DNA of 46,526 nucleotides from positions 1 through 46,526 of the forward strand of contig JAPOTT010000037.1 of the NCBI GenBank assembly GCA_026709025.1, read 5' to 3'. The notes under the pieces were generated by a model that was not told where the DNA came from, did not search any database, and saw only the letters and a list, made by a program, of their open reading frames with translations. A program made the position numbers and the translations under genes. The stretch is from a bacterium. GTDB lineage: Bacteria > Actinomycetota > Acidimicrobiia > Acidimicrobiales > Bin134. Below are positions 29,718 to 45,568 of the stretch, one piece after another; positions within the stretch are counted from its first letter, which is position 1; every line of letters starts with the position of its first letter.

Positions 29718-29801
29718 AAAGTTTGACGTAGAGCTAAGAAGTTAGTGGAAATGGGTTTTATTATATAGAAAGGCAGCGTAGTTGAGTGCTTTGTCTAGGG
29801 G
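29688..29801. repeat. 114-bp imperfect direct repeat, copy B
   Basis: Partner of 27590-27703. Its right half (29742-29801) is the true 3' end of the 158-aa defence-operon gene. Confidence 0.8.
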
Positions 29802-30218
29802 TGTAAGCCGAAGATCCTTGCTGTTAAGTTGCTCAAGTACCAGCGTGCAACCAGCTCCAGCTAAGCAGTTACCAACTTCGATGAGCTGAGCGGGGTTATC
29901 TATATCTTCATGGTCATGGCCGAGGTCGTGAAATGCAGCAACAGCGATAAGATCGCACAATGTGTCGGGCATCTCGACATCTTTAGTACTTATAAATTTG
30001 TCACCCCACTTGTCAGATGGGCTTGCAAGAGGATCAAGATTTTCGGCTAGTGCTGTGGTTAGACTAAATGCCCAGAAGTTCAATTGCCGGCGAAAGGGTG
30101 CTCGTTCTACGCCAGCCGATTGATGCATAAAAACAAAGCGTTGAATATCCTCCTTATGTTTTTTAGGCCATTTCAAGGGAAGGGAATTTTGGGTAAGGAG
30201 TTGGGAAAAATAGGCCAT
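29742..30218 (-). CDS. Unknown protein, last gene of the phosphorothioate operon
   Basis: 158 aa from ATG 30218, which has AAAGGT 8 nt upstream and lies 13 bp after the DndD-like stop. The frame is open to 30386, but that stretch is coding sequence of the upstream gene in another frame. Visible blocks are FRRQLNFWAFSLTTALAENLDPLASPSDKWGDKF with short gaps, a His/Asp-rich AAFHDLGHDHEDIDNPAQ, and a helical end. HDLGHDHED is reminiscent of metal-binding clusters but is not a clear HD domain. It is co-transcribed with the SMC-like gene. Function is unknown. Confidence 0.7.
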   Translation of the reverse strand: MAYFSQLLTQNSLPLKWPKKHKEDIQRFVFMHQSAGVERAPFRRQLNFWAFSLTTALAENLDPLASPSDKWGDKFISTKDVEMPDTLCDLIAVAAFHDLGHDHEDIDNPAQLIEVGNCLAGAGCTLVLEQLNSKDLRLTPLDKALNYAAFLYNKTHFH

Positions 30219-30231
30219 AGTTACGTACCTT

Positions 30232-42903: not shown

Positions 42904-43281
42904 TCAGTGCGGTAGCGAAGATGAGAGCGCTCTACTCTCTCTCTCTCTCTCTCTCTCTCTCTCTCTCTCGGCTGAGGCCCCCGAGCCTTTTTGTGTGTCT
43001 AGCAGGGCTAATGCGGTTTCGCGGGTTTCTCCAGCGGGGCCGAAAACGGCATCTAAAAGCAGCGCTAAAGATGATTTGCCCGAACCGTAAGGGCCTGTAA
43101 TAGACCAAGCTCCTCCTGCTTGGCCAGAGTCGGCCACTGTAGCGACTCGCCGTAACACCTCGCGAGCCCGTGCTGTTACTACATACCCGTCAAGGGGTGT
43201 ACACAGCGAAGCGTCTCTTTCGAGGTTGGCAGAGCGAGCGAAACGACCTTCTACTGTAACATGGTCGGCCAAGACAACCAT
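42904..43281 (-). CDS. sspC: SspC large ATPase, N-terminal part (truncated by the CT tract)
   Basis: 125 aa from ATG 43281, which shares a base with the sspB stop (TGATG); GTG 43284 is the alternative. Walker A is GPYGSGKS, about residues 63-70, after DGYVVTARAREVL. Reading enters the (AG)17 tract as Glu-Arg repeats, then leaves the sspC frame, giving SRALSSSLPH and TGA at 42904-42906. It has Walker A but no Walker B, so it is inactive as an ATPase in this state. Confidence 0.8.
   Translation of the reverse strand: MVVLADHVTVEGRFARSANLERDASLCTPLDGYVVTARAREVLRRVATVADSGQAGGAWSITGPYGSGKSSLALLLDAVFGPAGETRETALALLDTQKGSGASAERERERERERESRALSSSLPH
42935..42968. repeat. (CT)17 microsatellite, probable phase-variation tract in sspC
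   Basis: 34 nt of uninterrupted CT (AG on the coding strand) lie between the Walker A and Walker B parts of sspC. With n repeats the two parts are in one frame only if n is a multiple of 3 (15, 18, 21). With n=16 the codon after the tract is TAG, and with n=17, as here, TGA follows 10 codons later. Confidence 0.9.
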
Positions 43282-44405
43282 CACATCGCTCCTGTGGCTG
43301 TGCTTGCTAGACGAACATGGCCATTACGAGTACGAGGAGTACCTAGTTCATCGTTAGATTGCATGCCTGTTTGGGGTGCGCTTAAATCACCCACGCACTG
43401 GTTTTTGTAGTAGCTGTTTAGCATCTCAATTCCCAGCTTGGCTGGATCACCGTCCCACACTAGCTGAGTTGCTCCAGCAGGTGATGCCAAAGCCAATTGC
43501 CCGTGCGAATCCTGTGCGGCTTCACCCAAGAGCACGGCTAGCTCTGATTCTGTGAGTTTGAACGCTTTTCCGGGTGAGCCTGCTTCGTTGGCAAGACGAC
43601 TGAGCAGCGCTGTTTGGCTAGCACCGCTGGCTTTGGTGGCTACATTTTTGGCTGTATTTTGGGTGCTTGTATTTGCACCGGTCGGGTTGGCAGCATCCAG
43701 ATTGGCGCGTGCAACAAAGTCCAAAGCGGCGTAGGCCACAACCGCAGGCACCAGTGAGGGTTTGAGGCCCATGGTGAAACGGTAGTTTCCGGTAGCTAGA
43801 GATTTGGCAACCAAACCCAGTTCTCTTAACGGACAGTTCAACATGTCGTCTATGTTGTTGCGCGTGGAGCGCTCTGGGGGAGCGTAGGTGCGTAACATAG
43901 CGGTTATATCTTTGTGTACTGAAGAAGCGTGGGGCGTTTTCCACTCGGCGGCGGATTCCAGTGCTGATGCACACGCAGATTCCAGATCGGTTGCATCAAA
44001 CTCCACGGCCACAAATTGGTTGAACGCCACCCACCAAACTGGTAGGTGACAAGGCTTAGCTAGCAGATTCCAATGTAACAGCCACAGGGTAGCTGGGTGT
44101 TCCATGAACGGATCCCAGCCATCTGTAGGGTTGAACAGCAACTTGCCAAGTTCGGTTGGAGCAACGCCTGGCGTTCTTTTGTTGGGTGAGTTGGGGTTGT
44201 TAGCAATGAGCTTGGCTGCTGTACCCCAAAAGCGGATGGACTTCACCATGTTCTTGCCTACGCCCAACTCTACGGTGGCTTCAGGGTTGCTGAACGTATC
44301 GGCGGAGTCCAACGCTGCCTCGTAAGCCTTGCGGAACCAGCCATAGCGGGGATGGAAGGTTTCGTGGCGAGCGAACATGGGTAGGGCTGCTTCAGATAGT
44401 CGCAT
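43281..44405 (-). CDS. sspB: SspB, DUF4007 protein (probable nickase)
   Basis: 374 aa. The DUF4007 family is recognised from the opening FARHETFHPRYGWFRKAYE and ELGVGKNMVKSIRFWGTAAKL, then TELGKLLF and WLLHWNLL. In SspABCD, SspB provides the DNA nicking needed for single-strand phosphorothioation. An Asn/Thr/Ala-rich linker (about 250-270) is followed by a winged-helix-like end. ATG 44405 shares a base with the sspA stop (TAATG), and its own stop overlaps sspC. Confidence 0.85.
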   Translation of the reverse strand: MRLSEAALPMFARHETFHPRYGWFRKAYEAALDSADTFSNPEATVELGVGKNMVKSIRFWGTAAKLIANNPNSPNKRTPGVAPTELGKLLFNPTDGWDPFMEHPATLWLLHWNLLAKPCHLPVWWVAFNQFVAVEFDATDLESACASALESAAEWKTPHASSVHKDITAMLRTYAPPERSTRNNIDDMLNCPLRELGLVAKSLATGNYRFTMGLKPSLVPAVVAYAALDFVARANLDAANPTGANTSTQNTAKNVATKASGASQTALLSRLANEAGSPGKAFKLTESELAVLLGEAAQDSHGQLALASPAGATQLVWDGDPAKLGIEMLNSYYKNQCVGDLSAPQTGMQSNDELGTPRTRNGHVRLASTATGAM

Positions 44406-45568
44406 TAGCTTGGTGCCTCGGTCATGCTCCGAACATAGCGCACCGCTGTGACAGCTTGTTGGATAGCTGTTTGAATTTCGGCCTCGGTGGTGAACCTCCC
44501 GAGGCTAAAACGCACGGTTTCAAAAGCAGCTTGGCGGGAAAGGCCCATCGCCAAAAGCACCGCAGAAGGCTCAATGGCTCCCGAACTACAGGCGCTGCCA
44601 GTAGATACTGCAACAGGATCCATGTTGTGCATTACCGCTTCGGCATCGGCACCGCAGAAGCGGATGCTAGCTGTGTTGGGCAGGCGCCGGGATGTGTCGC
44701 CGTTTTCGCTAACATCTCCAGCGAGAGCCTCTACAAGCCCGGCCACCAACTTATCTCTCAGCCTGCTCACAGCCCTAGCCTCGGTGTGGAGTTCAGTGGA
44801 GCAGATGGCTGCAGCAGATCCTAAACCCACGATGCCCGCCACATTAAGCGAACCCGACCGCAGCCCTCGCTCATGTGCGCCGCCGTGGATGATAGAACTT
44901 AGCTGCGCCAGTGCAGACCGTGTACCCACCAGTGCGCCCACTCCAGTTGGGCCACACATTTTGTGGCTGCTTAGCGATACTAGATCGGCACCCACCTCGG
45001 TCATATTGAAAGGTAATCGCCCCACCATTTGTGTGGCATCGCAGTGCAGCATTGCTCCCACAGCGTGAGCGTGCTCGGCTGCCTGCGTAACCGGGTTGAG
45101 CACGCCGGTTTCGCTGTTTGCTGCCATTACCGATACCACAAGAACATCGGGACCCAAGAGAGCCTCAAGCTCATCAAGGTTTACATAACCGCCTGGGGTA
45201 ACCCCAACCACATCCACCTTGGCTGTGCCCTGGGTATGTAGCCATTGAGATGGTTTGCGTACTGAGGCATGTTCGGTGGCTGAGATAATGATCCGGTTGC
45301 GCTCAGGCGGAGCGGCCTCGGCCAGCCCCAACAGGGCTAGGTTGTTGGCTTCGGTGGCACCCGAACAGAACAGAACCCCCGAAGGTCTCGTACCTATCAG
45401 AGCGCCAACCTGTTCTCTGGCTTTATCAACCGCCGCAGCCCGGCGTAACCCGAAGCGATGCACAGAAGAAGCGTTGCCGATGCCACTGGTCAGTTCAGGC
45501 AGCATCGCCTCTGCAACACGCGGATCTAGCGGTGCTGATCCGTTGTAGTCGAGGTAAACCTCGTCCAT
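44405..45568 (-). CDS. sspA: SspA/DndA-type cysteine desulfurase
   Basis: 387 aa from ATG 45568, with a strong AAGGAGG box at 45573-45579; an upstream start at 45604 is less likely. PLP-dependent NifS/IscS fold: VYLDYNGSAPLDPRV, ATEANNLALLG, SLSSHKMCGPTG with the PLP lysine, and STGSACSSG with the sulfur-carrying cysteine. It supplies sulfur from cysteine to SspD. A general IscS role is the alternative, but coupling to sspB supports the Ssp assignment. It is the first gene of the operon. Confidence 0.88.
   Translation of the reverse strand: MDEVYLDYNGSAPLDPRVAEAMLPELTSGIGNASSVHRFGLRRAAAVDKAREQVGALIGTRPSGVLFCSGATEANNLALLGLAEAAPPERNRIIISATEHASVRKPSQWLHTQGTAKVDVVGVTPGGYVNLDELEALLGPDVLVVSVMAANSETGVLNPVTQAAEHAHAVGAMLHCDATQMVGRLPFNMTEVGADLVSLSSHKMCGPTGVGALVGTRSALAQLSSIIHGGAHERGLRSGSLNVAGIVGLGSAAAICSTELHTEARAVSRLRDKLVAGLVEALAGDVSENGDTSRRLPNTASIRFCGADAEAVMHNMDPVAVSTGSACSSGAIEPSAVLLAMGLSRQAAFETVRFSLGRFTTEAEIQTAIQQAVTAVRYVRSMTEAPS

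Follow-up and report, generated by a model that had tools for sequence, protein, structure and literature searches.

Gene content of the locus

The window analysed here is the whole of contig JAPOTT010000037.1 (assembly GCA_026709025.1), a stretch of 46,526 nucleotides (nt) from a bacterium of the order Acidimicrobiales (Actinomycetota). It is contig C24 of a 2.2 Mb genome in 56 contigs (G000), and comparison within the genus covered 22 genomes of Ca. Poriferisocius, a lineage whose name points to symbionts of sponges or marine animals. On the minus strand, from 45604 down to 29742, lies a run of genes encoding SspA, SspB, SspC, SspD, a GIY-YIG protein, a DndB-like protein, a sigma-like protein (736 amino acids, aa), a PLD-helicase (758 aa), a protein of 69 aa, an ATPase (746 aa) and a short final protein. 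This run, which we read as a phosphorothioation (PT) defence system, and a dinucleotide tract within its sspC gene are the subject of this report. Neighbouring genes overlap by 1, 4, 29, 13, 4 and 7 nt or are parted by gaps of 9, 56, 8 and 13 nt, and the 29-nt overlap shrinks to 8 nt if SspD begins at its third methionine. Because the gaps and overlaps are small, the whole run is likely to be one operon. An earlier note on this DNA, made from the sequence without database searches, had most junctions overlapping by 1-8 nt within one operon, which was roughly right, the overlaps spanning 1-29 nt with four gaps of 8-56 nt. Its limits for the locus, 29742-45568, need adjusting in that SspA reaches 45604 and a divergent PLD-helicase that begins at 45710 lies outside them.

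The first four genes form the modification module, adjacent and colinear, with sspC split by a change of frame. The cysteine desulfurase gene sspA (44405-45604, 399 aa) was named from its sequence and from alignments to other ssp loci, without a hidden Markov model scan; it shares 68-78% identity with the sspA genes of other ssp loci in the genus and in genome G055, and a desulfurase is annotated at the equivalent position on a Sphingomonadaceae plasmid (L117). SspB (43281-44405, 374 aa), the DUF4007 nickase/recognition subunit, matches PF13182 with 264 bits, above the cut-off, and the PADLOC SspB model with 311 bits. SspC, reported as the ATPase of the modification module (PMC7464106; this and the other published work is cited from excerpts), is represented by two open frames: an N-terminal part (42904-43284) with a Walker A motif (GPYGSGKS), 58-75% identical to the N-termini of other SspC of the genus, and a BrxC/PglY-like C-terminal ATPase part (39714-42818) that matches the PADLOC SspC model with 878 bits (E 2.4e-264). 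The PAPS-reductase-like sulfur transferase SspD (38858-39742) scores 360 bits in PADLOC and keeps 83-89% identity across the genus and G055. The order SspA-SspB-SspC-SspD on the minus strand, as the earlier note had it, is thus borne out by these matches; that sspC is out of frame was missed there.

A dinucleotide tract in sspC

The two frames of sspC are parted at a tract of (AG)17, 35 nt long (42935-42969, minus strand), which lies just past the Walker A region and is a predicted slipped-strand switch. In the assembled sequence SspC is not encoded as one protein, while an intact frame is present in relatives. All 10 occurrences of (AG)8 in the window fall in this tract, and none arose in 100 dinucleotide shuffles. 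Among the 22 genus genomes sspC or part of it is found in 13, and five carry the tract at the same place, with lengths (half units included) of 35 nt in the window, 44 in G001, 22 in G004, 33 in G011 and 24 in G020; the G001 contig holds 16 codons before its tract. When the GTDB R220 contigs were scanned for the tract and its flanking sequence, four records matched, every one from this genus; the window's own record was either excluded or not among the contigs. Separately, the intact sspC of G016 (L006) contains poly-C tracts of 9 and 10 at 3464-3472 and 4143-4152.

In all five genomes the tract puts sspC out of frame, G001, G004 and G011 into one wrong frame and the window and G020 into the other. 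The four tract-bearing SspC that include the C-terminal part form one clade (support 99/100), and about 40% of SspC residues differ between its members. Past the tract the C-terminal frame of the window runs for 1094 codons from stop to stop; the roughly 1000 codons left of the gene hold no other stop or frameshift, and dN/dS between tract-bearing pairs is 0.09-0.24 (NG86), with dS saturated in the pairs that involve the window. Judged by these rates, the remainder of sspC is under purifying selection.

It could be held that sspC is simply broken, the tract being a frameshift lesion in an operon that is dying or has been reduced to its arm. That every assembled tract is out of frame, and that no second SspC match was found in the window's own genome, would fit such a view. 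However, a lesion would hardly be retained at one place by a whole clade so diverged, in two different wrong frames, with the rest of the gene open and selected and with SspD as conserved as it is. Since the clade has kept the tract, the frame has stayed open and dN/dS is low, sspC does not appear to be decaying, and we regard this explanation as distinctly unlikely. The same selection on an out-of-frame gene could also be accounted for if frameshifts by the ribosome or slippage during transcription of the tract gave full-length SspC in every cell, without any genetic switching. The shift required, however, varies by species, three in one frame against two in the other, and the two different wrong frames therefore argue against a fixed programmed frameshift. 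Together with the length changes and in-frame homologues described below for other tract genes, this makes frameshifting very improbable.

AG tracts across the genus

Tracts of (AG)8 or longer occur at 29 loci (one at a contig end) in the 22 genus genomes, five of them in sspC and 24 in genes of restriction or DNA-modification type; this is a raw count, not normalised to the share of restriction-modification (R-M) genes in these genomes. The 24 comprise N6-methyltransferases (8), Eco57I-type (6), type ISP-like (4) and restriction-type SF2 helicase (4) genes, an EcoRI-type methyltransferase and an N4/N6-methyltransferase-HNH gene; 18 were classed by their own Pfam or PADLOC match, four of these being merely restriction-type SF2 helicases, and six by homology alone. 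In R-M-type genes the AG tracts range from 8 to about 50 units and are spread over 16 of the 22 genomes (for example at G000:C2:41774, G000:C56:1813, in G007:C48 and in G012:C2, L079). In the genome to which the window belongs, genes of restriction or DNA-modification type hold all four such tracts, three of AG and one (GT)15; the (GT)15, at G000:C3:71302 (L123), lies in an Eco57I-type methylase gene whose frame changes at the tract.

A type IIG gene gives the closest comparison. The G012 and G019 copies agree at 300 of 300 nt on each side of the tract, which measures 29 nt in one and 23 nt in the other, and a copy in G003, 99.3% identical on both sides, has a tract of 37 nt. Since these near-identical copies are unequal only in tract length, the change of DNA length is real. 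Homologous tract genes occur both in frame and out of frame: among 12 clear cases other than sspC, a set that excludes short and contig-end tracts (whose frame label is unreliable) and the remaining two tract genes of G000, seven are in frame and five out.

A control search for (AC)8 was not empty, with hits in five of the 22 genomes; the four scanned lie in two methyltransferase genes, a transporter gene and a gene without a family. Outside the genus but within the same order, one of two tract-end patterns searched detected AG tracts in 12 of 144 genomes. Five of the 17 loci listed there were scanned, and three encode fn3/kelch-type proteins (L131, L132, L133), probably surface proteins, two are without a family and none is of R-M type. 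The AG tracts of the genus are a candidate for a genome-wide phase-variable R-M repertoire.

Stutter is common at long dinucleotide repeats, and some of the contigs end in or near a tract. It is therefore conceivable that the frame break is an artefact of assembly or of stutter in the polymerase chain reaction (PCR), the gene being in frame in living cells. Such an artefact, however, can neither create a tract nor confine all 29 tracts to genes of this kind, and even if it misplaced the lengths, a hypermutable tract, and with it the reading of phase variation, would remain. We consider this explanation unlikely.

The genes behind SspABCD form a Pbe arm

The genes that follow the module correspond, gene for gene, to a PbeABCD restriction arm, and both gene content and Pbe identity are secure. 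In Haloterrigena jeotgali A29 the published DndCDEA-PbeABCD system has the order PLD-Res-helicase, 66-aa protein, AAA/ATPase, 152-aa protein (Xiong 2019, PMC6459918), and the window shows the same arm order. PbeA (32684-34960, 758 aa), a PLD (HKD) nuclease-SF2 helicase, matches the PADLOC model with E 8e-160 and TIGR04095 with 336 bits, below its cut-off of 600; ResIII and Helicase_C lie above their cut-offs and PLDc_2 is weak (15.7 bits). The HxK...GSxN motif is present in 12 of 13 aligned PbeA, with GSYN in the remaining one. The 69-aa protein (32481-32690), placed between pbeA and pbeC at the PbeB position, has no family match above cut-off in the family and PADLOC scans and is 67-68% identical to its counterparts in G021 and G012. 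The 746-aa protein (30232-32472), which the earlier note called DndD-like, is better described as PbeC, a CxC-type ABC ATPase (PADLOC E 1.9e-45, against 2e-24 for DndD). It carries a CVC motif at residue 368, an instance of the CxC by which the CxC ATPases are defined (PMC10853773), and an AAA_23 match of 58 bits, despite which a strict GxxxxGKS/T pattern finds no match in it.

The last gene had been taken as an open reading frame (ORF) of 214 aa (29742-30386), which would overlap PbeC by 155 nt; a start at 30218, giving 158 aa (29742-30218), agrees with the homologues instead. Although the window protein itself has no NCBIfam match, its alignment compared with a set of proteins that includes TIGR04062-positive ones gives a profile-profile match (96%, E 3.8e-9), and E is 2.7e-6 against the protein of the Sphingomonadaceae Ssp-Pbe locus L117, which identifies it as a PbeD/dnd_assoc_4 homologue. 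An AlphaFold2 (AF2) single-sequence model was too poor for use (pLDDT 44). The two small proteins that had been left as unknown are therefore PbeB and PbeD by position, and PbeD also by sequence.

The absence of SspE, DndFGH and DndE noted earlier holds up among the matches listed. Neither an SspE nor a DndFGH model is among the PADLOC matches listed for the ten proteins scanned (for the 746-aa protein, the best 25 of 74), and DUF262-DUF1524, expected of SspE, has no match above threshold, the GmrSD_N match on the DndB-like protein (15.8 bits) lying below its cut-off. For DndE, the window's own genome yields only a match of E 0.16, with stops. The earlier note had placed the three large proteins after dndB as equivalents of SspFGH, and the downstream genes do stand in the same place relative to sspBCD. 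SspFGH, however, comprises a Walker A protein and a protein with an FtsK-like C-terminus (PMC8092258), and no FtsK-like domain of the SspH kind was reported among the arm proteins in the PADLOC and family scans. The family assignments give a one-to-one match to PbeABCD, not to SspFGH, with two of the large proteins being PbeA and PbeC and the third a sigma-like companion of Pbe arms; an SspFGH equivalence was rejected on these grounds and is barely credible.

The arm belongs to an Ssp-specific clade

Within the genus, colinear loci in which sspABCD is directly followed by pbeABCD were found in the window, G012, G021, G002 and G009; outside it, they were found in two further Actinomycetota genomes, G418 and G109, and on the Sphingomonadaceae plasmid. 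The stretch from G018 ends inside pbeC and was left out of the trees because that gene is cut. SspB occurs in 9 of 396 sampled Actinomycetota genomes, and colinear Ssp-Pbe in two of the eight others. A branch with support 100/99 separates the PbeC of the eight colinear loci from ten other PbeC, and one with support 100/100 separates their PbeA from eight others. A C-terminal CxCx5CxxCER motif is present in all eight PbeC of the colinear loci and in none of the ten others, which are a convenience set rather than a random draw; among the ten is a PbeC without the cysteine (Cys) tail from a Rhizobium plasmid whose Ssp and Pbe genes are convergent. As the colinear PbeA and PbeC each form one clade, the arm does not look like an accidental hybrid, and its status as an Ssp-specific clade is well supported by these trees, within a small sample. 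The description of the locus as a hybrid Ssp-Dnd system was right in that an Ssp module is joined to an arm known from Dnd systems, but it understated the case in that the colinear arm is a clade of its own.

Pbe arms are also found with Dnd or methyltransferase genes, and the Ssp and Pbe genes might accordingly be mere neighbours in a defence island, without joint function. Against this stand their colinearity and tight spacing, as well as the recurrence of the same Pbe clade behind sspABCD in several Actinomycetota lineages and on an alphaproteobacterial plasmid, and we see little probability in it.

Other arms accompany SspABCD elsewhere. The Synechocystis, Geminocystis and Streptomyces plasmid loci with DUF4007 showed no Pbe arm in the annotated stretch. 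In three stretches (L054, 3962-8373; L055, 11232-15637; L056, 3269-7249) SspABCD is followed by an SF2 helicase, an MzaB-like GHKL ATPase and a third protein, for which weak PADLOC matches in L054 suggest a PLD-like nature; G013 and G055 have this combination, and so does G016, judging from its gene sizes. In G004 (L052, 238-4223) a further arm consists of a GIY-YIG protein, a DndB-like fusion protein of 689 aa and an SF2 helicase.

Companion and neighbouring genes

Between sspD and pbeA lie three genes. That a GIY-YIG, a DndB-like and a PLD-helicase protein share the run was correctly seen in the earlier note. The GIY-YIG protein (38496-38870, 124 aa) matches PF20815 and PF01541 above cut-off. 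The DndB-like DGQHR protein (37224-38486, 420 aa), a probable regulator, matches PF14072 (117 bits) and TIGR03187 above cut-off and falls below the DndB equivalog cut-off. Both genes, missing from G012 and G021, are probably accessory.

The sigma-like helix-turn-helix protein (34957-37167, 736 aa) has a Sigma70_r4 region and a match to a sigma factor in the PDB (E 2e-10). Of the two labels the protein had received, sigma-like stands; for an alpha-CTD, which part of it resembles by eye, there was neither a Pfam nor a PDB match. In a profile comparison the 736-aa protein matches those that precede pbeA in Ruegeria, G007 and G011 (E 1.7e-14). The survey of its gene neighbourhoods, suggested in the earlier note, found relatives or similarly annotated proteins directly before pbeA in several Dnd-type loci (Ruegeria, Pontibrevibacter by annotation, Arthrobacter, G007 and G011). 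By this recurrence the protein belongs with the Pbe arm as a companion. At an Aurantiacibacter methyltransferase locus another sigma-like gene, by annotation, follows the small last gene.

On the plus strand beside sspA, a divergent PLD-SF2 helicase gene with PLDc_2 and ResIII matches (45710-46525) is ended by the contig edge. Such a gene adjoins sspA in all four tract-bearing loci in which that side is visible, the neighbours in G004, G011 and G020 being 76-81% identical (about 856 aa; L052, 10915-13485; L071, 1-2518; L072, 2748-5318), and the remaining ssp loci searched yielded no close match. The helicase may act as an additional effector. Downstream of the operon the minus strand carries DUF222/HNH genes (13E12-type repeats) at 27704-29356 and 26109-26735.

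A proposed phase-variable phosphorothioation system

Taken together, we read the operon as a phase-variable single-strand PT defence in which SspABCD is joined to a PbeABCD arm of the Ssp clade, a reading to which we assign a probability of about three in four. According to this reading, SspABCD would mark host DNA with single-strand PT, and the PbeABCD arm, aided by the sigma-like, GIY-YIG and DndB-like proteins, would act on unmarked invading DNA. The (AG)n tract in sspC would gain and lose units through slipped-strand mispairing, moving the SspC ATPase in and out of frame, so that some cells are expected to carry the PT mark while others lack it. Phase variation of sspC is strongly suggested by the recurrence, unequal lengths and frames of the tract. 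We infer that slippage proceeds within populations, that PT is lost in the off state, that the arm of this clade depends on PT and that the system acts against phage.

Loss of sspC alone would, on the same model, leave the entire system silent without self-attack. The archaeal PbeABCD arm protected only in the presence of PT, and deletion of dndCDEA caused no growth defect (PMC6459918), whereas SspFGH damaged cells that lacked PT (PMC8092258); for CxC systems a suicide model has been proposed (PMC10853773). An arm that needs PT could therefore be silenced through the modification gene alone, and safe silencing via sspC in this clade is argued by analogy with that related system.

Several observations weigh against this reading. 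None of the five sspC tracts is in frame, where one in three would be expected by chance ((2/3)^5 = 0.13), and each was assembled as one consensus sequence, with a single genome for each species, so that library-PCR stutter could have misplaced its length. Tract and arm do not go together: the sigma-Pbe arm of G012 and G021 comes with no tract in sspC, on which ground a link of the tract to one particular arm was rejected, and G004 has the tract with its different set after sspD, the tract being therefore independent of the Pbe arm. PbeB is assigned only by position and size (69 aa versus the published 66 aa). PbeD, described as a cognate of DndE (PMC10853773), showed no similarity to it in these comparisons (no PF08870 match, 0.3% in hhalign, no PDB match). 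Finally, the PT-dependence of Pbe was measured in an archaeal Dnd system, not in this clade (PMC6459918).

Relation to known systems and significance

The operon differs from DndCDEA-PbeABCD in that its modification module is SspABCD rather than Dnd, and in that it adds the C-terminal Cys motif of PbeC, the sigma-like, GIY-YIG and DndB-like genes and the slippery sspC tract. The plasmid Dnd-Pbe loci of Ruegeria THAF33 (L119) and Pontibrevibacter (L134) resemble it in having a sigma-like gene directly before pbeA and a DGQHR protein, but their modification module is dndCDE. With SspABCD-SspE and SspABCD-SspFGH it shares SspABCD and differs in the arm, no SspE or SspFGH gene having been found (PMC8092258). 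It shares with CxC ABC-ATPase systems a CxC at the coiled-coil apex, here in PbeC, and an HKD-SF2 protein, here PbeA (Rakesh 2024, PMC10853773); in the excerpts of that work these systems are described with DndDE or methyltransferases and not with SspABCD. A parallel to the proposed switch is the type III methyltransferase MmyCI, phase-variable via (AG)12/(AG)10 with one clone off and one on (PMC3498834). There, too, an AG tract sets the frame of a DNA-modification gene; MmyCI, however, methylates bases and its switching is backed by clones, whereas sspC concerns sulfur in the backbone and the evidence is comparative alone. The open-access literature searched contains no report of a phase-variable PT system nor, in the portions seen, of Ssp paired with Pbe. 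The locus joins known parts in a way, and with a switch, that have apparently not been described before.

With this in mind, one may consider a broader proposal, on which we place even odds. Slippage would flip symbiont cells between sulfur-marked and unmarked genomes, as a PT 'phasevarion' that switches a Cys-tailed, Ssp-specific Pbe defence and may alter host gene expression, and the AG tracts of the genus would mark many DNA-modification systems for switching. If the phase-variable reading holds, PT joins methylation as a randomly switched modification, and cell-to-cell heterogeneity of PT would be partly genetic. An arm that requires the mark would explain how a single gene can switch a PT system without self-attack. 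The Pbe clade found colinear with Ssp would be a third kind of arm for SspABCD, beside SspE and SspFGH, and the Cys-tailed PbeC may reveal how a Pbe arm reads the single-strand PT mark.

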